Origin: Dyella amyloliquefaciens
GTDB taxonomy: Bacteria; Pseudomonadota; Gammaproteobacteria; Xanthomonadales; Rhodanobacteraceae
NCBI RefSeq assembly: GCF_004296575.1
Contig: NZ_SAYT01000009.1
Coordinates: 1 to 64,000 of the forward strand
Direction: 5' to 3'
DNA length: 64,000 bases
Part shown: piece after piece, positions 4,825 through 51,704 of the stretch
How positions within the stretch are numbered: the stretch's first letter is position 1
How the letters are laid out: each line of letters starts with the position of its first letter
Notes under the pieces: generated by a model
Seen by the model: only the letters and a program-made list of their open reading frames with translations
Databases searched by the model: none
What the model was told of the DNA's origin: nothing
Position numbers and translations under genes: made by a program

Positions 4825-5509
4825 CGACGAACCGCTGGCACGCGCGCGCCTCGCCTCGCTGCTTGGCGAATGCAACGACGTCGAAGTCGTTGGCAGCGTC
4901 AGTGACGGCGACACGGCGATGGCCGCGCTCGGCGACCTGCAACCCGACGTTCTGCTGCTGGACATCAACATGCCCGGCCTCACCGGCACGGCGCTCGCGC
5001 AGCGCCTGGCCGGTCGCAAGCGCCCGCTGGTGGTGTTCTGCACGGCCTATGAGAACCATGCGCTGCACGCGTTCGATCTTGGCGCGGTCGACTACCTGCT
5101 CAAGCCCGTGCGCCTGGAGCGGCTCAACGAAGCCCTGCAACGCGCCAGCCAGCGCCTGCAGCAGCTGCCGCGCGAAACGGTGAGTTACCTGCACGGTCGA
5201 CTGCGTGGCGAGCAGGTGAGGGTGGCGCTCAACGACGTGATCAGCCTGCTGGCCGAGGAAAAGTACGTGGTGGTGCAACACCGCGGCGGGCAGCTGTTGC
5301 TGGAGGAGTCGCTGCGGCAGCTGGAAGAGGCCTACCCGGACCAGCTGATCCGCCTGCACCGCAATTGCCTGGTGCCGTCACAGCGGCTGGTCGGGCTCAA
5401 GACACTCGCCGACGGCCGTGTCCTGGCCCGCCTCAGCGGCACCGAATTCACGCCCGAGGTGAGCCGCCGCAACCTGCCTGCGCTGCGCAAGCTGTTGCGC
5501 ATGGGGTAG
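4805..5509 (+). CDS. algR: LytTR-family response regulator (AlgR-like)
   Basis: A 234-residue DNA-binding regulator. The receiver domain shows the acidic pocket (Asp7, Asp8), phospho-acceptor Asp53 in LLDINMPG and the KPVRLERL lysine. Residues from about 125 form a LytTR domain ([23 protein letters not shown]). The start overlaps the kinase gene by 20 bases, so the two are translationally linked. In Pseudomonas the orthologous pair governs alginate and type IV pilus genes; here the target genes are unknown and the symbol rests on architecture and the hemC neighbour. Confidence 0.9.
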
Positions 5510-5615
5510 CACGTGCGACCTCGTGCGACGCGCACGGGCACTGCGTTGGCGGCCTGATTACGCGACAATGTCGATCCCCGACGACGCATCGTGCGCCGCC
5601 TCCACCGAGAGCCCC

Positions 5616-6533
5616 ATGACGCCATCCATCCTGCGCATCGCCACCCGCAAGAGCGCGCTCGCCCTGTGGCAGGCCGAGCACGTTGCCGCCGAATTGCGCG
5701 CGACCCATCCCGGCCTGGTGGTCGAGCTGGTGCCGATGTCCACGCGGGGTGACGAGATCCTGGACAAGCCGCTGGCCACCATCGGCGGCAAGGGCCTGTT
5801 CCTCAAGGAACTGGAAGTGGCGATGCTGGAAGGACGCGCCGATCTGGCGGTGCATTCGCTGAAGGACGTGCCGGCCGAACTGGAACCGGGCTTTACCCTG
5901 CCCGCGATCCTGCCGCGCGCGGATGCGGCCGACGCCTTCGTCAGCAACGACTACGCGGATCTCGCCGCGCTGCCGCTGGGCGCCCGCGTGGGCACGTCCT
6001 CGCTGCGCCGCCAGGCGCAGCTGCGTGCCACCCGGCCCGACCTGACCCTGCTCGATCTGCGCGGCAACGTGGGCACGCGCCTGTCCAAGCTGGACGCCGG
6101 CCACTACGACGCGATCCTGCTCGCCTGCGCGGGCCTGGAACGACTCGGACTGTCCTCGCGCATCCGCAGTCGCCTCACCGCGCCGGACTGGCTGCCGGCA
6201 CCGGGTCAGGCGGCCATCGCCATCGAGGCGCGCAGCGACCAGCCGGCCGTGCTCGAACTGCTGTCCGCGCTGGACGATGCGCAGACGCGGCTGGCCGTGA
6301 CGGCCGAGCGCGCGATGAACCACGCCCTGGGCGGCAGCTGCACGGTGCCGGTGGGTGCCTGGTGCACCCTCACCGAACGCGGCTTGCACCTGCGCGGCAT
6401 GGTGGGTGACGTGAGCAGCGGACGACTGCTGCTGGCCGAAGCCCAGGCGGAAGGCGACCAGGCCGAGGCGCTGGGCAAGCGCGTGGCCGAGGCCTTGTTC
6501 GAGCAAGGCGCCGGCGCATTGCTGGGGCCGTAA
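5616..6533 (+). CDS. hemC: Hydroxymethylbilane synthase (porphobilinogen deaminase)
   Basis: A 305-residue cytosolic enzyme that polymerises four porphobilinogens into hydroxymethylbilane for haem synthesis. Diagnostic features: N-terminal [15 protein letters not shown], the VHSLKDVP catalytic Asp (84), [10 protein letters not shown] cofactor-binding arginines and GGSC (Cys242), which carries the dipyrromethane cofactor. The ATG at 5616 was chosen because the family start aligns there; an upstream in-frame extension has no homology-like sequence. hemD, which often follows hemC, is not present; the next feature is a REP pair and a convergent gene. Confidence 0.97.
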
Positions 6534-6544
6534 CCACCTTTGTT

Positions 6545-6664
6545 GTGGGAGCGCACCCTGTGCGCGACGAGCCCACAAAACCCGTGCGCGGAATACGTGA
6601 TCGCGACAGCCGGCTGAAACGATCACGCCACTGCGCTGCGGTCGCGCACAGGGTGCGCTCCCAC
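6545..6664. repeat. Inverted pair of REP-like elements
   Basis: Two copies of the 24-base element (core GGAGCGCACCCTGTGCGCG) face each other at 6545-6568 and 6641-6664, separated by 72 bases. They fill the gap between convergent hemC and the DUF481 gene. Such pairs resemble BIME arrangements and may stabilise or end transcripts from both sides. Confidence 0.85.
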
Positions 6665-6685
6665 AGCACGGCCGTCGCATGACGC

Positions 6686-7498
6686 TTAGAAGTTGTAGAC
6701 CAGATTCGTGGTCAGCAACGTATCGGTGTTGTCCGTGCCCGGCTGCACGTCGCTGTTGTAGCGCACCTGGTAGCCAAGCTTGAGCGCCATCTTGCGCGTC
6801 ATGCTGACCGACAGGCCGATGTCGTTCTGGTAGTACTTGTTCTTCGAACCCGCTTCGAGCAGCAGCGTGTCTTCGAGCGCGGTGTTGGTGGTGAGGCGGT
6901 ACTTGTAGTTGATCAGTCCGCGGCCGACCACTTCGCTCTGCGAATCCTGCTTCACCTTCACGGTTTCGCCGTTCACCGTCTCATCGATATCGGCCGGACG
7001 GTACTGCTTGTAACCGGGGCCGGCTTCGAACGACAGCTCGGTGCTTTCCGTCTTCAGCGCGATGTAGCCGTAGCCCACCGAGACGATGCCCTGCCACAGG
7101 TTGGCGCCGAAGTCGTCATGCTCGTAACGCGCCGCGGTCACGATGTAGCTGCGCGGATCGAGCTTGTAGCCCACCGAAGCGCCCGCGTCGTAACGATTGG
7201 CAGTGGTGGTGAGGCGATCGATCGTGTTGCCTTGCTGGTCCTGCACTTCGACATCGCCCTTGGAGCGCAGGCCGTTGAGGAAGAAGTTGTTCTTCCAGAG
7301 GTCGTTTTCCTGGCTGAGGCCAAGCTTGGCGTTGGCGTTCTCGGAACGGGAGTTGCCGTAGGAGGACGCGAAGCCGAATTCGCCTGAGCCGGTCCAGCCG
7401 CCGTTGTCGGCGGGGTTGGTGGCCGGCGCATCATCAGCCTGCGCGCCAAAACTCACCAGCGCCGCGAGCAAAGCGCCCGCCATCAGGGTGTTCTTCAT
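6686..7498 (-). CDS. DUF481 family outer-membrane beta-barrel protein (YdiY-like)
   Basis: A 270-residue exported protein. The start was set at the signal peptide (MKNTLMAGALLAALVSFGAQA). The mature part has alternating aromatic/polar beta-strand patterns with GEFGFASSYGNSRSENA near the N-terminus, a DUF481 hallmark, and ends with a C-terminal phenylalanine (TNLVYNF), as expected for a BAM-inserted barrel. The function of DUF481 proteins is not firmly known; in other bacteria they are acid- or salt-induced. A 112-base gap separates it from the upstream membrane-protein gene on the same strand. Confidence 0.88.
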   Translation of the reverse strand: MKNTLMAGALLAALVSFGAQADDAPATNPADNGGWTGSGEFGFASSYGNSRSENANAKLGLSQENDLWKNNFFLNGLRSKGDVEVQDQQGNTIDRLTTTANRYDAGASVGYKLDPRSYIVTAARYEHDDFGANLWQGIVSVGYGYIALKTESTELSFEAGPGYKQYRPADIDETVNGETVKVKQDSQSEVVGRGLINYKYRLTTNTALEDTLLLEAGSKNKYYQNDIGLSVSMTRKMALKLGYQVRYNSDVQPGTDNTDTLLTTNLVYNF

Positions 7499-7610
7499 GG
7501 TATTCGTTCCATTTTCGTTAAAATAAGGCAGCCGCCACCTTAGCGGAGCGGATTGAACTGCCAGTGAATCGGGCGCCTCACGCGGGGCGGAAATGGCGCC
7601 ACGGAGCCAA

Positions 7611-8513
7611 TCAGCGGCTGTCAGGGAGTGCCGCCAGGGCCCCATCATACAAACTAAGCTCGGTCGCCATACCGATCATGCAGCTCACCGCGGCCAGCAG
7701 GGTGATCGGCATCACCCCCCGGCCGAAGCTGGCCAGCACCAGTCCCAGGCAGGGAATGGCGTACGCCATCAGGGCCGCCAGATAGCGCCGCGGCTGCAGT
7801 TCGAAGCGCGTCCTGGGCCCCGGCATGTGAGGCAATACGGCCTGCCAGCGCAGGTTTTCGATCAGGCCACGCAGCAGCGCCAGCAGCAGCAGGCCGATGA
7901 TCCAGGGCATGGGATGGCGGATGGCGTCTTCGCCCTCCTGTGCTGCGACACATGACCACAGCCACAGGCCACCGCCATACGTGGCCGATACCACGCGGCT
8001 GAGCGGCAACTGCGTGGCCAGACGCTCGTCGAGGCCGGGCGCCTGCCGCCGCGCGTCGCCGCGGGCCGTGATGATGATGCTGACCAGGCTGCTCAGCGCG
8101 AGCGCCGCGCCGGTCAGTCGCGTGGCCCAGAACGCGTTGTCGCCGCGAACCAGACCGGCCACGGCCATCACCGGCAGCAGGGTCGCGAGGGCGATCAACG
8201 CATCACGGGTGGGCCGTGAGCCGCGTCCAATGATCCAGCCATGCCAGCTGGGCATCCACGGCGAATGCAGGCAGGCGGCGACCAGGCCCGCGATCGCCAG
8301 CGCGCCACCAAGTGCCAGCGCCACCAGCGCATCGCCACGGCCATCGGGAAATACGCCGACCGCCAGCGCGAGTCCGGCCAGCATCCACAGGCCGAAACCG
8401 TCGTGGCCGGATACCACCAGCAAGGTGCTTCCCAGCCGACGGCGTTGGACGAGTGGAGAGCCTTCGTCCGAGTCGAAGACGGCGTGCTGCTTGGTCGCGC
8501 GGCGCTGCTTCAT
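7611..8513 (-). CDS. Eight-span integral membrane protein, weakly DmsC-like
   Basis: About 300 residues with roughly eight hydrophobic spans (for example HDGFGLWMLAGLALAVG, LALGGALAIAGLVAACLH, ITLLAAVSCMIGMATEL). Length, span number and the motif LH..P...W.......SRDALIA-like stretch after span two recall the DMSO-reductase anchor subunit DmsC, but no DmsA/B partner is nearby, so this is only a suggestion. The start at 8513 (MKQRRATKQ) precedes a plausible cytoplasmic tail; an in-frame ATG at 8549 is possible. It is divergent from the WYL regulator at 8657, which may control it. Confidence 0.72.
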   Translation of the reverse strand: MKQRRATKQHAVFDSDEGSPLVQRRRLGSTLLVVSGHDGFGLWMLAGLALAVGVFPDGRGDALVALALGGALAIAGLVAACLHSPWMPSWHGWIIGRGSRPTRDALIALATLLPVMAVAGLVRGDNAFWATRLTGAALALSSLVSIIITARGDARRQAPGLDERLATQLPLSRVVSATYGGGLWLWSCVAAQEGEDAIRHPMPWIIGLLLLALLRGLIENLRWQAVLPHMPGPRTRFELQPRRYLAALMAYAIPCLGLVLASFGRGVMPITLLAAVSCMIGMATELSLYDGALAALPDSR

Positions 8514-8656
8514 GAGTTTTGTGTCTTTTGTGCGTGAAGGGCGGATCATGGATGCATCACCACGGCGTGATGCCATCCACTTCCACCATCCGATGTACTT
8601 GCGGCGACTGCCAACGGTGCGCATGCTACGCGGAGACAGCCGGCGAAAATCATTTC

Positions 8657-9640
8657 ATGGATCGTTACGAGCGCATTCTCACCCTGCACCGGTTGCTGAA
8701 ATCGGCGCACTATCCGGTGCCCCTGCCGCGCCTGATGGACGAGCTGGAATGCTCGCGCGCGACGCTGTATCGCGACGTGGCCTTCCTGCGCGACGCACTC
8801 GGCGCCCCCATCGAAAGCGCGGGCGGCGAACATGCCGCGTTCCGCTATGCGGTGGGCGAGGGCGAGCGCTTCGAACTGCCGGGCTTGTGGTTGACCTCCG
8901 ACGAACTCGCCGCGCTGCTCGCGCTGAACGAGCTGATCGGCCGCAGTGGTCCGGGTGTACTTGCGGGTGCGCTCGCGCCATTCAAGGCGCGCATTGAACA
9001 CCTGTTGTCCGACCAGGGCAGCGGCAAGGCCTTGCCAATCGAACGCATCCGCGTCATCGCGTGGGGCGAACGCAAGCTGGACCAGCAGGTGTTCCGCATC
9101 GTCGCCGGCGCGGTGCTCGAGCGGAAGCAGCTGCGTTTCCGCTATCGCGCGCGCACCACCAACGCCGACAGCCATCGCCGCGTGTCGCCGCAACGCCTGA
9201 CCCACTATCGCGACAACTGGTACCTCGATGTATGGGACCACGACCGCGAGGCGCTGCGCAGTTTCGCGGTGGATCGCATCGCCGAGCCGCAGGCGCTGGA
9301 AGACGCCGCGCGCGACGTGCCCGAGCAGGAACTCAACGGCGCGCTGGCCTCCAGCTACGGCATTTTCGCCGGCGCACCCAAGGCCTGGGCCACCATCCGC
9401 TTCTCGCAGCACGCCGCACGCTGGGTGGCTGACGAGCACTGGCATTCGCAGCAGAAGGGCGAATGGTTGACCGACGGTCGCTACGAGCTGCAGGTGCCCT
9501 ATTCCAACTCCAAGGAACTGCTGATGGACGTGCTCAAGTATGGTCCGGATGCAGAGGTCGTCGCGCCGCTGTCGCTGCGCGAAGAAATGAAGATCCAGCT
9601 GCAGCTCGCTCTGGGCGGCTACCAGCAGGCGCCGCGCTGA
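8657..9640 (+). CDS. YafY-family transcriptional regulator (HTH and WYL domains)
   Basis: A 327-residue regulator. The N-terminus (MDRYERILTLHRLLKSAHYP) followed by LPRLMDELECSRATLYRDVAFLRD is the DeoR/HTH-11-type winged helix of YafY proteins. The middle region contains the WYL domain core HYRDNWYLDVWDHDREALRSF and ends with a C-terminal WCX-like domain (YSNSKELLMDVLKYGPDAEV). WYL domains bind ligands, including nucleic acids or nucleotides, but the effector is unknown here. The divergent neighbour at 7611-8513 is a likely target by position. Confidence 0.9.
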   Translation: MDRYERILTLHRLLKSAHYPVPLPRLMDELECSRATLYRDVAFLRDALGAPIESAGGEHAAFRYAVGEGERFELPGLWLTSDELAALLALNELIGRSGPGVLAGALAPFKARIEHLLSDQGSGKALPIERIRVIAWGERKLDQQVFRIVAGAVLERKQLRFRYRARTTNADSHRRVSPQRLTHYRDNWYLDVWDHDREALRSFAVDRIAEPQALEDAARDVPEQELNGALASSYGIFAGAPKAWATIRFSQHAARWVADEHWHSQQKGEWLTDGRYELQVPYSNSKELLMDVLKYGPDAEVVAPLSLREEMKIQLQLALGGYQQAPR

Positions 9641-9767
9641 GCGCCTGCTTCTTCGGCACTTGAGGTCACGCACGCCAGGACGATGGCGTGCCCCGGCGTC
9701 GCCTCTTGCCATTACGACACGCCAGGGCGAGGCTAGCGCCATCGTCCGTCGCCCCGCCGTGCGTTTC

Positions 9768-10727
9768 ATGAAGCCCACCGACATCGCCGAATCCTCAGCC
9801 CTTCCCACCGATACGCTTGCCATCCGAAAACCGACCGTCGCGCTGGCACTTGGTTCCGGTGGTGCGAAAGGCCTGGCGCATATCGGCGCCATCGAGGAAA
9901 TCGTTGCGCAGGGCTACGACATCGTCGCCATCGCCGGCACCTCGATGGGTGCGCTGATCGGCGGCATCTATGCGATGGGCAAGCTCGACATCTATCGCGA
10001 ATGGGTCTCGGCGCTGGCCAAGATGGACGTGCTCAAGCTGGTCGACTGGACCTTTTCCGGCGGTGGCCTGATCAAGGGCGAGCGGATCATCGAGACCCTG
10101 CGCGAGCTCATCGGCGATGCGCGCATCGAAGACCTGCCGCTCGCCTTCACCGCGGTTGCCACCGATCTCGATCGCGAACGCGAGGTGTGGCTCACCCGCG
10201 GCCCGCTGTTCGACGCCATCCGCGCGTCCATCGCCATTCCCACGGTGTTCCGCCCTTACGTGCTCTCGGATCGCCGCCTGATCGACGGCGGCCTGCTCAA
10301 TCCGGTACCGGTGACGCCGCTGATCCGCGAGGCCGCCGATTACCTGTTCGCCGTCAGCGTGGATGGGCCACCGGACCTGAGCACGCCCGAAGAAGTGCCG
10401 GCCACACCCACCGAGGATCCGGACAGTTATCGCTCGCGCATCGGTGATTTCATCAGCAAGCTGATGCCGCAAGGCGTCGACAAGCCACGCGAACCCGGCA
10501 TGCTCGAACTGCTCACGCAGTCGATGGACCTGATGCAGGCCAACCTGTCACGCCTTCGCCTGGCGGCCTACGAGCCGGACCTGTTGATCCGGCTGCCGCG
10601 CAACGTCGCGAGCGTCTACGAGTTCTACCGCGCACGCGAACTGATCGAGATGGGTCGCCAGCAGGCCAGGACAGCGCTGGAAGGCTGGCAGCCGAACCAT
10701 CGCATCAATGGGGCCCGTGTGCCTTGA
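9768..10727 (+). CDS. Patatin-like phospholipase (RssA family)
   Basis: A 319-residue lipid acyl hydrolase. GSGGAKGLAHIG (residues 30-40) is the glycine-rich oxyanion loop, GTSMG holds the nucleophile Ser59, and IDGG the dyad Asp173. No signal peptide or membrane span is evident, consistent with cytosolic RssA-type enzymes. The chosen ATG begins about 20 residues before the conserved KPTVALALGSGG stretch. The 3' end overlaps the convergent DUF488 gene by 23 bases. Confidence 0.93.
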   Translation: MKPTDIAESSALPTDTLAIRKPTVALALGSGGAKGLAHIGAIEEIVAQGYDIVAIAGTSMGALIGGIYAMGKLDIYREWVSALAKMDVLKLVDWTFSGGGLIKGERIIETLRELIGDARIEDLPLAFTAVATDLDREREVWLTRGPLFDAIRASIAIPTVFRPYVLSDRRLIDGGLLNPVPVTPLIREAADYLFAVSVDGPPDLSTPEEVPATPTEDPDSYRSRIGDFISKLMPQGVDKPREPGMLELLTQSMDLMQANLSRLRLAAYEPDLLIRLPRNVASVYEFYRARELIEMGRQQARTALEGWQPNHRINGARVP

Positions 10728-11073
10728 GCCAGGCGTCGAGGTAACTCTTCAGCGCGACGGCGTTGTTGTGGTCTTCGTCGCGTGCGCCAAACAGCAGCGT
10801 GATGCGGCGCCGCGACGCCTTGCTGGCCAGCGGTTGCCAGTATTCCGCGGCATCGTCGAGTTCGGTCGCGTAGCGATGCCGGAATCCCTCCCAGCGTGCA
10901 GGATCATGGCCGAACCATTTGCGCAGTGATTGCGAAGGCGCCAGCTCCTTGGGCCATTCGTCCAGGGCCGCGTCTTCCTTCTTGAGTCCCCGCGGCCACA
11001 GGCGATCGACCAACACCCGATAACCGTCGCTCTTGGCGGCGGGTTCATAGACGCGCTTGACGACAATGCTCAT
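10705..11073 (-). CDS. DUF488 family protein (YeaO-like)
   Basis: A 122-residue protein with the DUF488 signature: KRVYEPAAKSDGYRVLVDRLWPRG at its start (written here only as a region, residues 5-27), then ELAPSQSLRKWFGHDPARW and LLFGARDEDHNNA. Members are small cytosolic proteins of unknown biochemical role; conserved Arg, Asp and His residues suggest catalysis or nucleic-acid contact. The start at 11073 is where the family N-terminus begins. It runs convergent to the patatin gene with a 23-base overlap. Confidence 0.88.
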   Translation of the reverse strand: MSIVVKRVYEPAAKSDGYRVLVDRLWPRGLKKEDAALDEWPKELAPSQSLRKWFGHDPARWEGFRHRYATELDDAAEYWQPLASKASRRRITLLFGARDEDHNNAVALKSYLDAWLKAHGPH

Positions 11074-11172
11074 GGGCGGGCGGCCTGCCAAAGCAAGGAT
11101 CATCAGCATACGCCGATGAAAAACGCGTTGACGGCTCGTTACCCGCCCGCATCGGGCGAGATGAACGTTGTC

Positions 11173-11889
11173 TTAGAGTTCTTCGACCTGGGTGACCTTG
11201 CCACGACGCATCAGCCACGCCACGCCGCGCAGATCCGCGATGCCGACCCACAGGCGATCGAGCATGCCGTACTTGGACGTGCCCGCCGTGCGCGGACGAT
11301 GCCCGACCGGCACGCTGGTGCTCTGGAAGCCCGCGCGCTTCACCAGCGCAGGCAGATAGCGGTGCATGTGGTCGAAGTAGGGCAGGCGCATGAACACGTC
11401 GCGATCGAACAGCTTCAGGCCGCAGCCGGTATCCGGCGTGGAATCCTTGAGCATGCGCGAACGCACCGCGTTGGCGATCTTGGACGAGATGCGCTTGTTG
11501 AAGCTGTCGCGACGCGTGGTACGCCAGCCGGCGAACAGGCGCACGTTGGCCTGGGCCTTGTCACGCTCGGCAAGCAGCTTGGGGATGTCGGCCGGATCGT
11601 TCTGGCCATCACCGTCCAGCGTGGCGATCCACGGCGAACGCGCCGCGCGCACGCCATTCCACACCGCCGTGCTCTGCCCGCTGCGGGTCAGGTGCCGCAC
11701 GATGCGCAGCTCCGGGTAATTCGGCTTCTGACCGGCAAGCACCGCCACGCTGTCGTCGCTGGAGTCGTCGTCCACGTACACGACCTCGAAGTCGACCTTG
11801 CCACGCAGGGCAGCGGCGATTTCGGCGAGCAGCGGCGGAATGTTGTCGCGCTCGTTGAATACCGGCACGACGACGGACAGTTGGGGCAT
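11173..11889 (-). CDS. Family 2 glycosyltransferase, polyprenyl-phosphate mannosyl/glucosyltransferase-like
   Basis: A 238-residue GT-A enzyme. MPQLSVVVPVFNERDNIP starts the nucleotide-binding fold, YVDDDSSDDS is the DxD-like first acidic motif, and ATLDGDGQNDPADIP the second. This layout matches dolichol/undecaprenyl-phosphate hexose transferases without C-terminal membrane spans, which make lipid-linked sugar donors. No other cell-surface glycan genes are adjacent, so the acceptor pathway is unknown. Upstream lies a 1.2-kb repeat block. Confidence 0.9.
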   Translation of the reverse strand: MPQLSVVVPVFNERDNIPPLLAEIAAALRGKVDFEVVYVDDDSSDDSVAVLAGQKPNYPELRIVRHLTRSGQSTAVWNGVRAARSPWIATLDGDGQNDPADIPKLLAERDKAQANVRLFAGWRTTRRDSFNKRISSKIANAVRSRMLKDSTPDTGCGLKLFDRDVFMRLPYFDHMHRYLPALVKRAGFQSTSVPVGHRPRTAGTSKYGMLDRLWVGIADLRGVAWLMRRGKVTQVEEL

Positions 11890-12039
11890 GGGGAAAGCCT
11901 TGTCTGAAGCAGGGGGCGCTTGGCGCCAGGGCGCCATTCTAGTGGGTGGAAGGCTTGGCGTCAGGTGTGGGGTGGACTGAGGGGTACGCATCCCACCGCA
12001 CTGGCTACCTGGCCAGGCTGTTGAGGCTCGGCGCTCATT

Positions 12040-12063
12040 GTGGGAGCGCACCCTGTGCGCGAC
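12040..12063. repeat. Single REP-like element
   Basis: One copy of the element with core GGAGCGCACCCTGTGCGCG in the gene-free 11,890-13,089 interval, without an inverted partner within 150 bases. Confidence 0.75.
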
Positions 12064-12122
12064 CGCCTTTGGCGTCGGTCATCAGTTCTTGTTGTCACTC
12101 GGCCTTCGGTAGCCATGCTATC

Positions 12123-12470
12123 GCCAGGGTGCCGCTTACGACGCAAAGCTAGTCCCTGTGGGACGCGGCGGGCGTTTCGATCCCCTGCCGGCGACGCGAA
12201 GCTAGTCCCGTGGGACGCTCGAGTCACTTTTCTTTTGCTGGCCCACGCACGCGCAAGAGCGCGTGCTAACGGCGAAGCCGGCCCGAAGGGCGGAGGGCAG
12301 GATGCCCGGAGTCAAAGAAAAGTAACCCAAAGAAAATGGCCTTCAGAGCCAGGGCTCATAGCGGTACGAGGGATAGAAGCGCCGGAGGACTGTGGCAAGC
12401 CGAATCAGAGGCGTGCTACCTCCAAGGGTGCGGCTACACCGCAACACGCCCATGCGCTGAGGACTTAAGG
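12123..12470 (-). repeat. Long dispersed repeat, inverted and expanded copy
   Basis: Read on the minus strand this stretch follows the same order as the 224-base repeats at 12,589 and 33,240: TTAAGTCCT, GGTGTAGCCGC, TTTTCTTTGGGTTACTTTTC, then CGAAACGCCCGC and GTAAGCGGCACCCTGGC. It is longer because the loop of the central hairpin is replaced by about 75 bases, and because a unit GCGAAGCTAGTCCC...GTGGGACGC appears twice (about 12,140-12,165 and 12,190-12,215). With the direct copy at 12,589 it forms a large inverted pair. Confidence 0.7.
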
Positions 12471-12504
12471 CAGGACTGGCGCACGACAAATGCACTCCGC
12501 GAAC

Positions 12505-12555
12505 CACCCCACTTCTCCCTCTCCCCTCCGGGGAGAGGGCTGGGGTGAGGGGACA
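12505..12555. repeat. CCCTCTCCC/GGGAGAGGG palindromic repeat
   Basis: The sequence holds CCCTCTCCCCTCC followed by GGGGAGAGGG and CTGGGGTGAGGGG, a widespread proteobacterial intergenic palindrome. A related copy in the opposite orientation lies at about 33,541-33,577. Confidence 0.65.
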
Positions 12556-12588
12556 ATCTCGCAAGAGCACTCAAAGGCACCAAAGCCC

Positions 12589-12812
12589 GCTTTAAGTCCT
12601 CACCGCCACGACGCGTCGCGGTGTAGCCGCTCGCCAGCGGCGGAGGCCGTCGCAATCAGGGCTCCGCAACCTTCCAAAGCTTTTCCCTACATATCGCTAC
12701 CAGCTCTTCAGGTCATTTTCTTTGGGTTACTTTTCTTTTGGACCAGCAAAAGAAAAGTGACTCGAGCTCCGGCAGGAGATCGAAACGCCCGCTGCGTAAG
12801 CGGCACCCTGGC
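12589..12812 (+). repeat. Long dispersed repeat, copy A (224 bases)
   Basis: Aligns end to end with 33,240-33,463, from GCTTTAAGTCCTC to GTAAGCGGC.ACCTGGC, with both copies 224 bases long and the last ~100 bases nearly identical. The centre is a perfect 12-bp hairpin, ACTTTTCTTTTG / CAAAAGAAAAGT with loop GACCAG. No reading frame is convincing in it. Function unknown. Confidence 0.78.
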
Positions 12813-12903
12813 CATAACGAAGCTACCAAAGGCCAAAGTCACGGGATGACTCGCTACGCTCGCCCCTTCGGGGCCGCCCTACGGGCGTTCTGCGCGCTAC
12901 GCG

Positions 12904-12978
12904 CTTGTCCTGCCTTCGCAGGAATGACGAGCATGAAGACCGAGGCGAAAGGCGATCGCGCACTGGGTGCGCTCCTAC
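12904..12978. repeat. dRS3-like palindrome plus REP-like element
   Basis: Bases 12,904-12,930 contain GTCCTGCCTTCGCAGGAATGAC, a diverged dRS3-like palindrome. After a GACCGAGGCGAAA linker, bases 12,955-12,978 are a REP-like copy (GCGCACTGGGTGCGCTCC). The parB terminator follows directly. The same order occurs at 171-295. Confidence 0.7.
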
Positions 12979-12988
12979 AGAAGACCGC

Positions 12989-13023
12989 CAAAAAGAAAGG
13001 GCCCGCGACCACGTCGCGAGCCC
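12989..13023 (-). terminator. Rho-independent terminator of parAB
   Basis: On the minus strand a 10-bp stem (GGGCTCGCGAC pairing with GTCGCGGGCCC) is followed by CTTTCTTTTT. It sits about 65 bases after the parB stop and closely resembles the terminator at 261-295. Confidence 0.82.
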
Positions 13024-13089
13024 CCATCTACCCATCCGCCAAAAAGGACCCCGAGGCGCAGCCAAGCCAGCCACCGCGCCAGCCATCCC

Positions 13090-13962
13090 TCAGCGAATCT
13101 TCCCCAGGATTCCATCCAGCTCGTCGTTGCTGTGATAGTGGATCACCAGCTTGCCCTTGCCGCCGCGGCCATGTGCCACTTCCACGCGGGTAGCAAAGCG
13201 CTCGGCCAGTTCGCGTTCCAGCGCATCGACGTTCGGATCGCGAGCGGGAGCGTTCTTGGCTTTGCCCTTGGGCGCGGTCTGCGCGCGACGAGCAGCTTCT
13301 TCCAGCTCGCGCACGCTCCAGCCGCGACGGGAGGCTTCCAGGGCAAGGCCTTCGGCCATGCTCTCCGGCAGCGTAATCAGGCAGCGCGCGTGGCCCATCT
13401 CCAGCTTGCCCTCGTCGAGCAGGCGCTTGATCGACACCGGTAGTTCGGTGAGGCGCAGCATGTTGGACACGGAAGCGCGCGAGCGGCCCACCGCATCGGC
13501 AGCCTGCTGGTGCGTGAGGTCGAAGTCGTCAATGAGGCGCTTCAGCGCGTCGGCTTCTTCCAGCGGAGTGAGGTCCTGGCGCTGGATGTTCTCGATCAGC
13601 GCCATGGCCGGCACGGCCACTTCCGGCACGTCCTTCACCAGCACCGGAAGCTCGTGCAGCTGCGCGCGCTGGGCGGCGCGCCAGCGGCGTTCGCCGGCGA
13701 TCAGCTCGAACATGTTGTTGCCGATGGCGCGGACCACCACCGGCTGGATCAGGCCCTGCGCGCGGATGGAGGCGGCCAGTTCGTCCAGCGCCTCGTCGTT
13801 CCAGTGGCGGCGCGGCTGGTACTTGCCGGGCTGGATCTGCTGGATCGGCAGCGTGCGCAGCTCGCCTTCCTGCTCGAGCACCGAGGGCTTGCCGGGTTCG
13901 TCGTTGCCGCCCAGCAGCACATCGAGCCCGCGTCCCAGGCCCCGTTTTTTCGCAGCGGACAT
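13090..13962 (-). CDS. parB: Chromosome-partitioning protein ParB
   Basis: A 290-residue CTP-dependent DNA clamp that loads at parS. Visible: the basic N-terminal KKRGLGRGLDVLL (ParA-stimulating tail), the RRHW..EALDELAASI and GERRWRAA CTP-binding boxes, ENIQRQDLTPLEEA, the helix-turn-helix LTHQQAADAVGRSRASVSNMLRL (about residues 150-172) and a C-terminal dimer domain ending ELDGILGKIR. It starts two bases after parA ends, so the genes form one operon. Two perfect parS sites lie at 61,842 and 62,466 in recF, about 48 kb away on the origin side. Confidence 0.97.
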   Translation of the reverse strand: MSAAKKRGLGRGLDVLLGGNDEPGKPSVLEQEGELRTLPIQQIQPGKYQPRRHWNDEALDELAASIRAQGLIQPVVVRAIGNNMFELIAGERRWRAAQRAQLHELPVLVKDVPEVAVPAMALIENIQRQDLTPLEEADALKRLIDDFDLTHQQAADAVGRSRASVSNMLRLTELPVSIKRLLDEGKLEMGHARCLITLPESMAEGLALEASRRGWSVRELEEAARRAQTAPKGKAKNAPARDPNVDALERELAERFATRVEVAHGRGGKGKLVIHYHSNDELDGILGKIR

Positions 13963-45193: not shown

Positions 45194-46207
45194 TCAGGCG
45201 CTTACAGTCACGGCCCATAGATCCTCGCCGAGTTCATCGAAATCGATCTGCACCGGCAGGAATTTTTCGATTAGCGCTGCATTGGTACGCGAGTGCTCGG
45301 TGGGCGCCTGCGTGGTGAAGTTGCCACCGCCGGCCAGGGCCAGCGGCAGCAGCAACTGGTCCGCAAGATACGGTCCCACGGCCGCACCGCTTGCAAGGTA
45401 GGCACGCGCCTCTTCACTCACCCGTTCGCCGACGCGCTCAGCGGTCACACCGCGCTCGCCGAAGGCGGTGAACAACTCCGTGACCTCGCTGCACTGCACG
45501 CGCACCATCAGGGCATTGCCAGGTCCTGGAGAGCCGATGGCCTGACGGATATGGCGATGCTCATCCGCGATCGGCAGCCGGCGCCTCACGGCGTCGAGTT
45601 CGCGTTCGCCCACGCGTCCCGGCACCGAGGACATCAGTGCGGTCACAGACATACCGATGGCCTCGCCACGTTCGGGCACATGCAGGGGTACAGGCGCCTT
45701 GCTCGCCGAGATATCCATCAAGACAGCGCCGCCGCCGGCCGGATAGAAGCCGTGGCGCTCAAGGCGTAGATGCGCCTGCAGTCCCATGCGCCGCATCAGC
45801 GGGAGAAAACTGTCCACCATGAAGTCCGCACTGGGCGCCAGCGGATTGTGTGTGCCGCCTTCCAGCAGCAAGCGGGCATCGACGCGCGCCATCCACAACG
45901 CTGGCAGCACAGTCTGCACCACCAGCGTGGTGGAGCCCGCCGTGCCGATGGGCCAGTGATAGTCGCCACCACGCACGGCACCCGGCGTGAACTCCAGCGT
46001 GAGCGAACCAGGCTCGGCACCCGCGACGGTGGCGTTGCCCACGTCGCGGGCCGCCTGCACGGCCGTCAGGTGCTGGCGCATCAAACCCGGACGCGGGCGT
46101 TTCGCACGGATATGCTCCATGCGAAACGCCTCACCCGTGCACAGGCTGAGTGCGAGCGCGGTGCGCAACAACTGGCCACCGCCTTCCTTTCCGTTGATCT
46201 CCAACAT
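45194..46207 (-). CDS. rtcA: RNA 3'-terminal phosphate cyclase
   Basis: A 337-residue enzyme that makes RNA 2',3'-cyclic phosphate ends using ATP. EINGKEGGGQLLRTALALS is the diagnostic N-terminus, and the adenylylated His is expected in PTEHSRTNAAL near the C-terminus (about residue 305). The start was placed at MLEINGK, 17 bases after the rtcB stop. It is the last gene of the rsr-Y RNA-rtcB-rtcA unit, where it can prime ends for RtcB. Confidence 0.95.
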   Translation of the reverse strand: MLEINGKEGGGQLLRTALALSLCTGEAFRMEHIRAKRPRPGLMRQHLTAVQAARDVGNATVAGAEPGSLTLEFTPGAVRGGDYHWPIGTAGSTTLVVQTVLPALWMARVDARLLLEGGTHNPLAPSADFMVDSFLPLMRRMGLQAHLRLERHGFYPAGGGAVLMDISASKAPVPLHVPERGEAIGMSVTALMSSVPGRVGERELDAVRRRLPIADEHRHIRQAIGSPGPGNALMVRVQCSEVTELFTAFGERGVTAERVGERVSEEARAYLASGAAVGPYLADQLLLPLALAGGGNFTTQAPTEHSRTNAALIEKFLPVQIDFDELGEDLWAVTVSA

Positions 46208-46224
46208 CTTCCTGTCCTTAGCAC

Positions 46225-47445
46225 TCAACCCTTGACGCAAACCACCTGGCGCAAGGTATGAACGATTTCCACCAGATCCTGCTGTGCCGCCATCACGGCA
46301 TCGATGGACTTGTACGCGGCCGGTGACTCATCGATCACACTCGCATCCTTGCGGCATTCCACATGGGCGGTTGCCGCGCGATGTTCTTCCAGCGTGATCT
46401 GCTTGCGCGCTGCGGTACGGCTCATCACGCGTCCGGCGCCGTGGCTGCAGCTATGGAAGCTGTCCGCGTTGCCCAGTCCGCGCACGATGAAGCTCTTCGC
46501 GCCCATGCTACCGGGGATGATGCCCAGCTCGCCCTTGCGCGCACTCACCGCGCCCTTGCGCGTCAGCAGGACGTCCTTGCCGAAATGATGCTCGCGGTTC
46601 ACGTAGTTGTGGTGGCAGTTCACGGCTTCCGCCTCGGCATCGAAGGGCTTGTCGATAACCTTGCGCACGGCTTCCACGACGTGCCGCATCATGATGACGC
46701 GGTTGGTGCGTGCAAAGCGCTGCGCCCAGTCCACCGCGAACACGTAGTCGCCAAAGTGATCGCTGCCTTCGGGCAGGTACGCAAGGTCCTGGTCAGGCAG
46801 GTTGATCATCCAGCGGCGCATGTCCTGCTTGGCCAGCTCGATGAAGTGCGTACCGATGGCGTTGCCCACGCCGCGCGAACCGGAGTGCAGCATGAACCAC
46901 ACGCGCTGCTCCTCATCCAGGCAGACTTCCACGAAGTGGTTGCCCGTACCGAGCGTACCGAGATGGTTGAGGTTGTTGGTGCGCCCAAGCTTGGGATGCT
47001 TTTCCACGATGCGCGCAAAGTCTTCGTGCAAGCTGCTCCAGCCGTCCAGCGCGGCCTGCGGCGGCGTGGACCACGCCCCCTTGTCGCGCGCGCCCACGGT
47101 ACGACCGTGCGGTACGGCGCGCTCGATCGCCGAACGGATGCCGGCCAGGTTGTCGGGCAGGTCGCTGGCGGTCAACGTGGTGCGCGCGGCGATCATGCCG
47201 CAACCAATATCGACGCCCACCGCGGCAGGCACGATGGCGCCGACAGTCGGCACCACCGAGCCCACGGTGGCGCCCTTGCCCAGATGCACGTCCGGCATCA
47301 CGGCGACCCAGCGATGGATGAAGGGCAGGCGAGCGATGTTGAGCAGCTGCGCGCGCGCCTCGTCTTCCAGCGGCACGCCATGCGTCCACAGCTTGATCGG
47401 CACGGCGCCCGCTTCGTTGATGACGTTGTAGTTCTGCGATTCCAT
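46225..47445 (-). CDS. rtcB: RNA-splicing ligase RtcB
   Basis: A 406-residue GTP- and Mn-dependent ligase that joins 2',3'-cyclic phosphate (or 3'-phosphate) to 5'-OH RNA ends. VGVDIGCGM (metal-binding Asp79 and Cys82), TGNHFVEV, LHSGSRGVGN, GSMGAKSFIVRG and CSHGAGRVMSR, with the guanylated His335, are all present. Length matches the E. coli type. GGGAAG precedes the ATG. It follows the Y RNA array by 55 bases, and a perfect DnaA-box 9-mer (47,445-47,453) overlaps its start codon, probably by chance. Confidence 0.97.
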   Translation of the reverse strand: MESQNYNVINEAGAVPIKLWTHGVPLEDEARAQLLNIARLPFIHRWVAVMPDVHLGKGATVGSVVPTVGAIVPAAVGVDIGCGMIAARTTLTASDLPDNLAGIRSAIERAVPHGRTVGARDKGAWSTPPQAALDGWSSLHEDFARIVEKHPKLGRTNNLNHLGTLGTGNHFVEVCLDEEQRVWFMLHSGSRGVGNAIGTHFIELAKQDMRRWMINLPDQDLAYLPEGSDHFGDYVFAVDWAQRFARTNRVIMMRHVVEAVRKVIDKPFDAEAEAVNCHHNYVNREHHFGKDVLLTRKGAVSARKGELGIIPGSMGAKSFIVRGLGNADSFHSCSHGAGRVMSRTAARKQITLEEHRAATAHVECRKDASVIDESPAAYKSIDAVMAAQQDLVEIVHTLRQVVCVKG

Positions 47446-47500: not shown

Positions 47501-47629
47501 GCGACGACAAGAGTTGAGGAACCATCCCGCTCTATCCGCTGAGCTACACCGCCACAGTGTCGGCGGTGGCGGGAGTCGAACCCGCGGCCTGGAGCTTAGA
47601 AGGCTAGTAAGTCCCTCGGCATTCGCCGC
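47501..47629 (-). ncRNA. Y-RNA-like gene Y5 with permuted tRNA-like head
   Basis: 129 nt. Terminal stem GCGGCGA/TCGTCGC, internal loop AUGCC opposite eight bases ending UUG, then an 8-bp stem GAGGGACT/GGTTCCTC. The head reads, 5' to 3': an anticodon-loop-like stretch AGC-CTTCTAA-GCT (would-be anticodon TCT), T arm GCGGG-TTCGACT-CCCGC, 3' acceptor strand CACCGCC, loop GACACTGT, 5' acceptor strand GGCGGTG (7 perfect pairs), TA, and D arm GCTC-AGCGGATA-GAGC. This is a tRNA with its halves swapped. It is nearest rtcB. Confidence 0.85.
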
Positions 47630-47663
47630 GGTTGAAGCTGGTGTAGCGTTGGTTGATATGAGT

Positions 47664-47780
47664 GCGACGACAAGGCATGACGAACCGCATCTTGCTCTAC
47701 CACTGAGCTACGACGTTCCGAACGGGCAACGTCGGCAGGAGTCGAACCCGCGACACAGTAGGTCCATCGGCATTCGCCGC
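47664..47780 (-). ncRNA. Y-RNA-like gene Y4 with permuted tRNA-like head
   Basis: 117 nt. Terminal stem GCGGCGA/TCGTCGC, loop AUGCC opposite ATGCCTTG, then GATGGACC/GGTTCGTC (8 pairs). Head: a nine-base linker without any anticodon-like loop, T arm GCGGG-TTCGACT-CCTGC, acceptor CGACGTT, ten-base loop, AACGTCG (7 perfect pairs), TA, and D arm GCTC-AGTGGTA-GAGC. Spaced 34 bases from Y5 and 34 bases from Y3. Confidence 0.85.
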
Positions 47781-47814
47781 GGTTGAAACGTTTACTGCGT
47801 TGTTCGGTCCGGAT

Positions 47815-47945
47815 GCAGCGACAAAGAGTGACGAACCGTTCCTGCTCTAACCGTTGAGCTACGACGCAACCGAGGTTGACGTCGGCGGGATTCGAACCCG
47901 CAACCAGGAGCGTGACAGGCTAGTAGGTCCGTCGGCATTCGCTGC
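47815..47945 (-). ncRNA. Y-RNA-like gene Y3 with permuted tRNA-like head
   Basis: 131 nt. Terminal stem GCAGCGA/TCGCTGC, loop AUGCC opposite ACTCTTTG, then GACGGACC/GGTTCGTC (8 pairs). Head: GC-CTGTCAC-GC, which matches the anticodon loop of tRNA-Asp(GUC); T arm GCGGG-TTCGAAT-CCCGC; acceptor-like helix CGACG.CAAC / GTTG.CGTCG with a CTCG tetraloop and one bulged T; TA; D arm GCTC-AACGGTTA-GAGC. AGGA after the D arm can pair with TCCT before the T arm as a short anticodon-type stem. Confidence 0.85.
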
Positions 47946-47962
47946 CGAACCAGTACAAAAGG

Positions 47963-48065
47963 TGCAACGACAAGTGGTAACGAAACGTTTCCTGCAGTGC
48001 AGGAGGGGACTCGAACCCCTTCGCCCGAAGGCTTACCAGATGTAGTTCCGTTGGCATTCGTTGCA
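47963..48065 (-). ncRNA. Y-RNA-like gene Y2, compact form
   Basis: 103 nt. Terminal stem TGCAACGA/TCGTTGCA, loop AUGCC opposite ACCACTTG, then AACGGAAC/GTTTCGTT (8 pairs). The head has no D arm. It holds a UUCG hairpin (GCC-TTCG-GGC), a perfect T arm AGGGG-TTCGAGT-CCCCT and a minihelix CCTGC-ACT-GCAGG in place of the acceptor. Only 17 bases separate it from Y3. Confidence 0.83.
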
Positions 48066-48105
48066 GAACAAACTCCTTGATTCATTATTCTTGCGTGAGG
48101 CCTGT

Positions 48106-48129
48106 CCCGGCGGGCCTATTCCCACCGGG
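48106..48129 (-). other. GC-rich hairpin between Y1 and Y2
   Basis: On the minus strand CCCGGTGGG, loop AATAGG and CCCGCCGGG form nine pairs (one G-T). It resembles the hairpin at 48,333-48,358 in stem and loop but has no T-tract, so it is not a standard terminator. It may protect or guide processing of the array transcript. Confidence 0.6.
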
Positions 48130-48201
48130 TGTATCGACGCCATCCCTGGCAACCTCTCTGCGCATATCGTTTCAGCATTCCTTGCCGTAACGCGTGCAAG
48201 T

Positions 48202-48300
48202 GCAACGACAATCGTTGATGAAACGTCCTGCATTGCAGGCGGGGATTCGAACCCCTGGGCCCGAAGGCCTTATCCGTGTAGTTCCATCGGCATTCGTTGC
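48202..48300 (-). ncRNA. Y-RNA-like gene Y1, compact form
   Basis: 99 nt, first in the array. Terminal stem GCAACGA/TCGTTGC, loop AUGCC opposite AACGATTG, then GATGGAAC/GTTTCATC (8 pairs). Head: UUCG hairpin GGCC-TTCG-GGCC, T arm GGGG-TTCGAAT-CCCC and minihelix CCTGC-AAT-GCAGG. No D arm. The CGAAUG and UUGUCG strands resemble the Ro-binding helix of Y RNAs. Confidence 0.83.
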
Positions 48301-48332: not shown

Positions 48333-48358
48333 CCCCGGCAGGCTCATTCCTGCCGGGG
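48333..48358 (-). other. GC-rich hairpin between rsr and Y1
   Basis: On the minus strand CCCCGGCAGG, loop AATGAG and CCTGCCGGGG form ten perfect pairs, starting 24 bases after the rsr stop. There is no T-tract. A similar hairpin lies before Y2. Confidence 0.65.
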
Positions 48359-48381: not shown

Positions 48382-49932
48382 CTACAGATCCATCTCCTCG
48401 ATGCGCTCGACCCAGCGACGCGCCTGGTCACCTCGTGCAACGTCCGCCAACAGCGCGAACACCGCATCGCTGAAGCCACCGATGTGCGTGACATCCGGCG
48501 CTTCCTGCGCCTGGCTGGTCGCCGTCGGCTGCAGGTCGATACACACCAGGCGTGCCTTGGGGTTGCGCGCCTTCAGCGCGGCCCACTGACGCATCGTCTC
48601 GGTACCACCGCCGCGACGCGTATCCGCCCAGCTCTGGTTGTCCGACGCGATCACCACCAGATCGGGCGCGACGCCTTCGCGATTCAACAGCGCCAACGGC
48701 GCGCTGACGCTGGTACCGCCACCGACCATGCGGGCCATCTGCTGCGCCTGGGTCAGCACGCTGTCCCGGGCGTTGAGCTTCAGCTCGCGCACCGTTTCGG
48801 CGAAGGGAATCACCCGCGCCTTCGGGTTGCCGCGCTTGATGCAGGCGACCATCAAGGCCGCCACCTCCACACACGTCACACTGGTGGTGGCGCCACGGCG
48901 ATAGCCGGTGACCGGCGACGCCATGGAACCGGAGACGTCGATCGCCAGCGCTACGTTGCCTGCCAGCGTCGGCACCGACGCCGTTGCCACTTCCATCGCA
49001 TCCTGCAAGGCCTCGAGAATCGCCTCCGGCATGCTTCCCACCGCAGCGCGATACGCCACCATCAGCTGGTACGGGAACACCCGCGACCGCTTGATGGCTG
49101 CCGGATCACGCAGGCGCGCGGCTATCTGCTTCACCAACTGCTCGTCCTCGAACACGCCCTTGCGCAGGAACGTATTGAGGTTCATGCGCGTGGCCTGCCA
49201 CGAGCTGCGCGACGCCACCGCCTTCCAGTGCGTGCCCGACAACGGCATCGCCGTGAGGTACTGGAACGGCAGGTCCGGCACGTCGCCCGACGGATCGGCC
49301 TTGAACGCCTCGTACTCGCACACGATCGCCGGCAGCTTGTCCACCGCGCAGGGCTTGCCGATCAACCAGGCATACAAGGCCTCGCGCTCGGCATCCTGCG
49401 GCTGCGGGTGCACCATCCGGATCACGTCTGCCAGCGAGGGCTGCTCGCCGATGGCCGCCGACATCAACGCTTCCATCGACGCCCTGGTCAGCCAGTTCGC
49501 CACCAGGCGCTTGGGACGCGAGCCCAGTGACTTGCGACCGAGCACGCCACTGCGCACGATCTGGACGAAGTTGCGCAGCATGCGGCCGTTGTCGATCACC
49601 CGGTCGAACACCTGCTCCAGCAACGCGCCATCGCGACACGCCAGGTAAGCGAGCAACAACGCCGGCACGTCCTTCATGTGGGCGTGCTTGCGGGCATACA
49701 GCGCCACCTTGGCCACGAAGGCCGGCGATACCGCATCGCACATCCCGACGAGCGTATCGAGCTGGGTCTGCGCATCCGCATAGAAGGTGCCGTTGAGGCA
49801 ACCGGTGGTCGCATAGAGCGCGAGGGTCGCCTCGGGGCTGCGCTGGTAGGCGGCGCCGCCGGCTTCGTTGATAGCGCTGGCTCGGGCAACCCGGGCACCG
49901 CGAAAGCTTTGGAAGAGTTGAAGGTTCGACAT
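48382..49932 (-). CDS. rsr: Rsr, bacterial Ro60 orthologue (TROVE and vWA domains)
   Basis: A 516-residue RNA-binding ring protein. Residues ~1-320 form the TROVE/HEAT-repeat ring (LLLAYLACRDGALLEQVFDR, NFVQIVRSGVLGRKSLGSRP). The C-terminal vWA domain has an intact MIDAS: DVSGS (332-336), Thr407 in GGGTSVS and Asp431 in IASDNQSW. Ro60 proteins bind Y RNAs and misfolded RNA and can direct the exonuclease PNPase. The start at 49,932 (MSNLQLFQSF) lies 30 bases downstream of a sigma-54 promoter. The Y RNA array follows directly, then rtcB and rtcA. Confidence 0.95.
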   Translation of the reverse strand: MSNLQLFQSFRGARVARASAINEAGGAAYQRSPEATLALYATTGCLNGTFYADAQTQLDTLVGMCDAVSPAFVAKVALYARKHAHMKDVPALLLAYLACRDGALLEQVFDRVIDNGRMLRNFVQIVRSGVLGRKSLGSRPKRLVANWLTRASMEALMSAAIGEQPSLADVIRMVHPQPQDAEREALYAWLIGKPCAVDKLPAIVCEYEAFKADPSGDVPDLPFQYLTAMPLSGTHWKAVASRSSWQATRMNLNTFLRKGVFEDEQLVKQIAARLRDPAAIKRSRVFPYQLMVAYRAAVGSMPEAILEALQDAMEVATASVPTLAGNVALAIDVSGSMASPVTGYRRGATTSVTCVEVAALMVACIKRGNPKARVIPFAETVRELKLNARDSVLTQAQQMARMVGGGTSVSAPLALLNREGVAPDLVVIASDNQSWADTRRGGGTETMRQWAALKARNPKARLVCIDLQPTATSQAQEAPDVTHIGGFSDAVFALLADVARGDQARRWVERIEEMDL

Positions 49933-49961: not shown

Positions 49962-49977
49962 AGCAGGAGCCGTGCCA
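49962..49977 (-). promoter_or_regulatory. Sigma-54 (-24/-12) promoter of the rsr-Y RNA-rtcBA unit
   Basis: On the minus strand TGGCACGGCTCCTGCT matches TGGCACG-N4-TTGCW with one difference; the invariant GG and GC doublets are correctly spaced. Transcription should start near 49,951, about 20 bases before the rsr ATG. RtcR, encoded divergently, is a sigma-54 activator. Confidence 0.87.
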
Positions 49978-50049
49978 ACCACTTATCCAACAGTTATCCA
50001 ATTGTTTTAACTACAATTAATCTCACTTACCCACAAAACCGACCACAAC

Positions 50050-50102: not shown

Positions 50103-51704
<1,602 letters not shown>

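Follow-up and report, generated by a model that had tools for sequence, protein, structure and literature searches.

Two of five tandem Y RNA genes in Dyella amyloliquefaciens are predicted to encode circularly permuted tRNA mimics with a full anticodon arm

Two RNAs of the Y RNA array of Dyella amyloliquefaciens, Y1 and Y3, are predicted to carry a full anticodon arm, which appears to be the unusual element of this array. The inner domains of its five RNAs seem to be tRNA mimics of three types, a point missed by the original prediction for the DNA analyzed here, a stretch of 64,000 nucleotides (nt) that we call the window. Bacterial Y RNAs are known tRNA mimics, and the form described in print so far as read (excerpt of PMC8394870) imitates no more than the D, T, and acceptor arms. 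Since the present array holds armed as well as armless Y RNAs, it allows a direct comparison of the two forms. We number the RNAs Y1 to Y5 from the rtcB end (Table 1).

The original prediction had placed five tandem Y RNA genes on the minus strand between rsr and rtcB, and all five copies are indeed present there. Its description of the stem is exact for each of them, with all 7 terminal-stem pairs and all 8 second-stem pairs formed and, between the two stems, an internal loop with AUGCC on the 5′ side and exactly 8 nt ending in UUG on the 3′ side. The covariation that it noted in the terminal stem is real and becomes stronger among relatives, where pair 3 across 43 sequences is GC in 19, UA in 11, AU in 8, CG in 2, GU in 1, UG in 1, and unpaired in 1. 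The covariance-model search that it proposed was run, and the Rfam YrlA model (RF02553) matched Y1 to Y5, each aligned over model positions 1 to 114 (E values from 6e-17 to 7e-5). Y2 scored above the gathering score of 69 bits and Y3 and Y1 slightly under it, while Y5 (E = 1.4e-5) and Y4 (E = 6.7e-5, both in a search of 1,201 bases) fell far below; some members of the family receive too low a score from this model. These five matches, the covariation of both Y stems, and the location between rsr (the Ro60 gene) and rtcB together support the conclusion that Y1 to Y5 are bacterial Y RNA genes, whose products are predicted transcripts and Rsr ligands. Compared with shuffled sequences, single-copy folding of Y1 to Y5 gave z scores of −1.6 to −3.4 (−3.36 for Y5). 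The window contained no other Rfam RNA family at gathering score.

One expectation failed. A set of five had been thought unusually large, and this exceptional status is ruled out by the copy counts over 81 rsr loci (the window and 80 others), 52 of which have three to five copies (four copies in 23 loci, five in 15, and three in 14), as counted by a rough script that overcounted the window itself, giving six because of a single chance start. Reading the sequence directly, we also saw a G+C-rich hairpin between the rsr stop codon and Y5 (48333..48358, minus strand), with a comparable hairpin 3′ of rsr in several relatives by eye, and a second, similar G+C-rich hairpin between Y5 and Y4 (48106..48129, minus strand). 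These hairpins flanking Y5 have no T run and are perhaps processing or termination signals.

The array sits within an RtcR-type RNA repair operon, in the minus-strand order rsr, five Y RNA genes, rtcB, rtcA, with rtcR divergent and a promoter assigned by its consensus. The promoter-like site TTGGCACGGCTCCTGCT has one mismatch to the sigma-54 consensus. Sites of this type with two or fewer mismatches are no more frequent in the window than chance predicts (2 versus 4.04 expected), so it is the position of TTGGCACGGCTCCTGCT that carries weight. In gene set and order, divergent rtcR, and sigma-54-type site, the locus resembles the Salmonella rsr-yrlBA-rtcBA operon; it differs in having five Y RNAs of three inner types, where Salmonella has two RNAs, and in its Rsr, which is a distant member of the NCBIfam Rsr family (E = 5e-26, 91 bits against a cut-off of 900). 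The best solved relative of this protein is the Rsr of PDB entry 2nvo (E = 1.6e-26), and the nearest rsr is that of Dyella sp. ASV24 (91% identity).

Table 1. Features of the rsr-Y RNA-rtcBA locus, in positions of the window
Feature	Positions	Strand	Length	YrlA score (bits)	Description
rtcA	45194..46240	−			RNA 3′-terminal phosphate cyclase; NCBIfam NF003246, 425 bits (cut-off 352); start codon provisional
rtcB	46225..47445	−			RNA ligase; Pfam RtcB, E = 9.5e-129
Y1	47501..47629	−	129 nt	68.3	Predicted anticodon arm, loop CUUCUAA, triplet UCU
Y1 anticodon arm (tRNA 29-43)	47591..47605	−			AGC-CUUCUAA-GCUCC; partner nt 27-28 at 47526-47527
Y2	47664..47780	−	117 nt	74.2	Predicted permuted D, T, and acceptor arms, without anticodon arm
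Y3	47815..47945	−	131 nt	68.8	Predicted anticodon arm, loop CUGUCAC, triplet GUC
Y3 anticodon arm (tRNA 29-43)	47907..47921	−			AGC-CUGUCAC-GCUCC; partner nt 27-28 at 47841-47842
Y4	47964..48064	−	101 nt	32.5	Predicted half-tRNA mimic
Y5	48202..48300	−	99 nt	34.8	Predicted half-tRNA type, as Y4
rsr	48382..49932	−	516 aa		Bacterial Ro60 (TROVE/vWA) protein; Pfam vWA_Ro60 and TROVE
Sigma-54-type promoter-like site	49962..49978	−			TTGGCACGGCTCCTGCT; ∼30 bp before rsr
rtcR	50103..51704	+			Divergent sigma-54-dependent activator of RNA repair operon; NCBIfam NF038308, 819 bits (cut-off 650)

The prediction that the inner domains of Y1 to Y3 form a circularly permuted tRNA body, complete in Y1 and Y3, is well supported at the sequence level. 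In these two RNAs, tRNA positions 29 to 72 come first, followed by a hairpin loop and positions 1 to 28, and the Y stem lies between 28 and 29. The 5′ part thus runs from position 29 through the anticodon loop, the variable region (AGGCC in Y1, UGGUU in Y3), and the T arm to the 3′ strand of the acceptor; after the hairpin loop come the 5′ strand of the acceptor, nt 8 and 9 (UA), the D arm, and nt 26 to 28. Pairs 27-43 and 28-42 complete an anticodon stem of 5 bp that is interrupted only on its 5′ strand, where the permutation at 28/29 would let the Y stem branch out; every helix is nested. Relative to the Rfam YrlA model, which has no anticodon arm, Y1 and Y3 contain a 14-nt insertion; Y2 aligned without an insertion at this site. 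The D, T, and acceptor arms that characterize YrlA are present in Y1 to Y3. Y4 and Y5 combine a T arm, a hairpin resembling a long variable arm (GCCUUCGGGC in Y4), and an acceptor-like hairpin; they lack the D arm and are therefore counted as Y RNAs and not assigned to YrlA. A very short Y RNA (∼72 to 75 nt), whose only tRNA-like parts are a T arm and a short acceptor-like strand, stands first in the array of some relatives of the window (L010:6608, L011:6607, L012:6606, L087, and L099, minus strand), and other related Y RNAs have very long acceptor hairpin loops (44 to 162 nt versus ∼8 nt; L016:6832-7111, L038:6864, L063:7122 and 7314, and L075:6658), although some of these joins were possibly made by the script.

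ARAGORN called no tRNA anywhere in the window, and the canonical linear order with an open acceptor stem and a 3′ CCA end is absent from the Y RNAs. When applied to 45 armed RNAs (see below), it called one in native order and all 45, with the expected triplet, after de-permuting. It also called 393 of 450 de-permuted sequences with a shuffled anticodon arm; since it accepts shuffled arms nearly as often, it does not test the arm, and we dropped these calls as proof and rest no claim on them.

The architecture of Y1 and Y3 with an anticodon arm is instead well supported by comparison with relatives. Cores, defined by script as a T arm, an acceptor hairpin, and a D arm 3′ of a GAATG, were collected from the 80 rsr loci, the window, and the loci of an Rfam search of family genomes; 107 were found and 85 kept after removal of duplicates and of hits without a TAG-type D arm or TAC motif. 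Among the 57 cores long enough to hold an arm, 45 show it in exact register (3 bp between 29-31 and 39-41, a 7-nt loop, and a 5-nt variable region), a number that shuffled segments approach only distantly (mean, 3.2; maximum, 10). On a 6 × 9 grid, the next largest cell held 8, and the maximum of shuffled grids averaged 8.4 and reached 14. Out of register are the other 12 long cores and all 28 shorter ones, in which the available room is ≤8 nt (6 cores) or 9 to 19 nt (22 cores). Pairs 27-43 and 28-42, which played no part in the selection, are formed in all 90 cases (45/45 each), with GC/CG switches, compared with 65.9 of 90 when partners were shuffled (maximum, 76). The loops retain U33 in 42/45, A37 in 37/45, and a purine at 37 in 41/45 RNAs.

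A MAFFT alignment of 43 of these RNAs (two with acceptor loops of >30 nt were left out) pairs 98.8% of cells, including 100% in both anticodon helices, and shows both-side changes at all five anticodon-stem pairs; sliding the structure along the alignment lowers pairing to 34 to 49%. RNAalifold recovers the anticodon hairpin unaided, from an input set selected for having the arm. The arm is missing from minimum-free-energy folds of Y1 and Y3 taken singly, perhaps because its three junction-side pairs would need stacking for stability, a contribution that programs of this kind capture badly.

The arm was left unspecified in a second search pattern, which prescribed the Y core, the T loop, and nothing else apart from the spacing. 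Applied to 399 genomes from the family to which Pelomonas G514 belongs, which we take to be the Burkholderiaceae of GTDB, it gave 31 hits in 29 genomes, all 31 in exact register; this sample partly overlaps that of the rsr loci, with some of the same species. Elsewhere the pattern hit 3/369 genomes of the window's class (in a slightly stricter version), 14/147 of its family, and 6/188 of the class of a Luteolibacter. Register was found there in 3/7, 12/23, and 3/6 hits, respectively, or 18/36 in total, one of these 18 being a Y4-type RNA that passed by chance; the pattern also picks up armless Y4-type RNAs. Judged by record titles, armed RNAs occur in loci of proteobacteria, acidobacteria, verrucomicrobia, and planctomycetes.

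Within the arm, the frame of the loop is kept, loops of real tRNAs are slightly favored, and the triplet is variable. Of the 45 distinct tRNAs examined in the window's own genome, tRNA-Arg(UCU) has the loop of Y1 and tRNA-Asp(GUC) that of Y3, both being identical 7-nt anticodon loops in standard numbering. Among the 45 armed RNAs, 19 have a loop equal to that of one of these tRNAs of the window's genome, versus 7.8 under a column-shuffle null (P = 0.0002, per sequence), and among distinct loops the excess is smaller, with 8 of 34 versus 3.7 (P = 0.0066). An enlarged distinct set, drawn from the 45 armed RNAs, the 31 Pelomonas-family hits, and 7 from the other three samples, was compared with a second tRNA set; here 10 of 46 loops matched real ones (P = 0.018), and in the Pelomonas family alone 5 of 17 (P = 0.115), a modest enrichment in tests that are inflated by relatedness. 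Natural anticodons are not enriched, with 35 of the 46 distinct loops having one and ∼31 expected from uniform triplets, and A34 occurs in 12 of 46 loops compared with 1 of 61 real loops. Triplets beyond the natural anticodons and the frequent A34 argue against decoying of specific tRNAs. That the loops are copies of specific host tRNAs thus holds only in part, being weak on the enlarged set. In the Pelomonas family, 23 distinct arms carry 13 triplets, with entropies of 2.00, 1.37, and 1.48 bits at positions 34 to 36, compared with 0.43 at 33 and 0.81 at 37; positions 46 to 48 are invariant.

Recent capture of Y1 and Y3 from tRNA-Arg or tRNA-Asp was considered and is not supported by alignments with the genome's own tRNAs, others of which match the two bodies equally well or better: Thr, Gly, and Pro tRNAs score at least as high as Arg(UCU) for Y1, and for Y3 a Met tRNA is best and Lys equals Asp(GUC). 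Unlike those tRNAs, Y1 and Y3 are permuted, with a hairpin-closed acceptor and no CCA end. Circular permutation also occurs in certain tRNA genes of archaea and algae, whose products mature into working tRNAs; in the Y RNAs, by contrast, an Rsr-type Y stem keeps hold of the ends. YrlA itself has been described as a circular permutation of a tRNA (excerpt of PMC11472068). It imitates the D, T, and acceptor arms, DusA and TruB modify it, and in company with Rsr it directs PNPase to structured RNA (excerpt of PMC8394870). Y1 to Y3 share with YrlA (RF02553) the Y stem, the place next to rsr, and the permuted D, T, and acceptor arms, and Y1 and Y3 depart from it by their full anticodon arm, as Y4 and Y5 do by the absence of a D arm and the hairpin resembling a long variable arm. 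Descriptions of an anticodon arm in bacterial Y RNAs were absent from the literature matches listed, whose coverage lay outside the primary Y RNA papers. We regard Y1 and Y3 as an anticodon-armed variant of YrlA-type Y RNAs, and as a new one provisionally.

What the arm might do is a matter of two close readings. In the widest form of the first, to which we give somewhat less than an even chance, armed Y RNAs would serve as bait or competitor for anticodon nucleases. The Y RNAs would be made once RtcR senses broken tRNA and would be held by Rsr, and Y1 and Y3 would present their anticodon loop, as competitor or sacrificial bait, to enzymes that attack such loops, the arm making a YrlA-like mimic a full nuclease target. 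Because the long Y stem joins both ends, a cut loop would stay put, open to resealing by RtcB. The armless Y2, Y4, and Y5 would have more ordinary Y RNA roles, such as Rsr gating or nuclease tethering. In favor of bait, the genes share an operon with rtcB and rtcA beside rtcR, and in each of the five loci that have a pair of armed RNAs, the members of the pair carry different triplets, although three of these loci are from Dyella relatives and thus not independent. The Salmonella operon responds to tRNAs cut in the anticodon loop (excerpt of PMC7790460). Against bait, according to the same excerpt, the anticodon nuclease that induces the Salmonella operon leaves YrlA uncut, and YrlA has been proposed to be a competitive inhibitor, though the YrlA model is armless. 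The variable triplet would be expected if the nuclease recognized the frame of the loop and not the triplet, or if the triplet were not under selection. A more specific version, in which nucleases bind or cut the loop, Rsr holds the ends, RtcB reseals a renewable bait, and triplet hypervariability is the trace of an arms race, seems unlikely to us. Since the armed form is found in register across several phyla with a variable triplet, the idea of a bait or competitor is directly testable.

The second reading, which we hold possible with slightly less confidence, is that the arm is a structural part or a relic of tRNA ancestry, kept because without a stacked stem and a U-turn loop the tRNA-like body would be incomplete. 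The RNA would then act only as a Y RNA (a gate of Rsr and a tether for PNPase or other partners), and its triplet would drift freely. The high variability of positions 34 to 36 beside retained U33 and A37 is as expected from this, as are the common, unnatural A34, the armless Y2 in the same array, and the armless Rfam model. Less easily accommodated are the exact register in 45 of 85 cores of an arm that can be missing (28 of the 85 are too short for it) and the slight over-representation of real loops.

Third, armed Y RNAs might be substrates or sponges of enzymes that modify or bind the anticodon arm of tRNAs, for example of the TruA or MiaA type. A37 and positions 38 to 40 are usual sites of tRNA modification (for part of this, see also the excerpt of PMC8394870), and according to that excerpt DusA and TruB act on YrlA, which is known to be modified in its D and T loops; the link to rtcB and rtcR and the varying triplet would be left unexplained, and we consider this quite improbable. 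That the arm is a chance hairpin in an unstructured linker, as might be suspected from a stem of only 3 bp and from single-sequence folds in which the insert is open or has other partners, is hardly credible given the exact register, the five covarying pairs, U33 and A37, and the 31 of 31 hits in the Pelomonas family.

How widespread such arrays are is shown only roughly by the Rfam YrlA search, in which 4 of 147 genomes of the window's family exceeded the cut-off, 103 had matches at an E value of 0.01, and 14 had hits of >50 bits; its score alone was rejected as too blunt a measure of spread, since 9 of 14 control genomes matched as well. Across the 12 genomes assigned to the genus of the window, YrlA hits of >50 bits were confined to the genome from which the window comes, as were hits of the second pattern, suggesting that the array comes and goes. 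In four acidobacterial loci (L022, L053, L073, and L085), Y-RNA-like genes flank rsr on both sides, according to the rough counter. In Pelomonas G514, contig C17 carries an array of 28 tRNA genes in which all twenty amino acids are represented (L213:8974-13269), ∼7 to 11 kb past the Y RNA of the rsr operon (G514:C17:100946); this tRNA array might replace cut tRNAs.

Some jumbo phages encode a TROVE protein with a tRNA-like partner, according to a phage review (excerpt of PMC7824862). We found viral contigs of up to 392 kb, some of >200 kb, with several Y-RNA-like genes that have other tRNA-like bodies; examples among loci L161 to L175 are L173 (plus strand, 4685-7900), L164 (reverse complement, 3813-13300), and L163 (plus strand, 1206). 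In L173, seven Y-RNA-like starts crowd into ∼3 kb; L163 includes one RNA with an arm, whose loop is CAUUUAA. The inner domains of these viral RNAs resemble other tRNAs, presumably with Glu/Gln-type D arms and a Leu-type D arm with a long variable arm.
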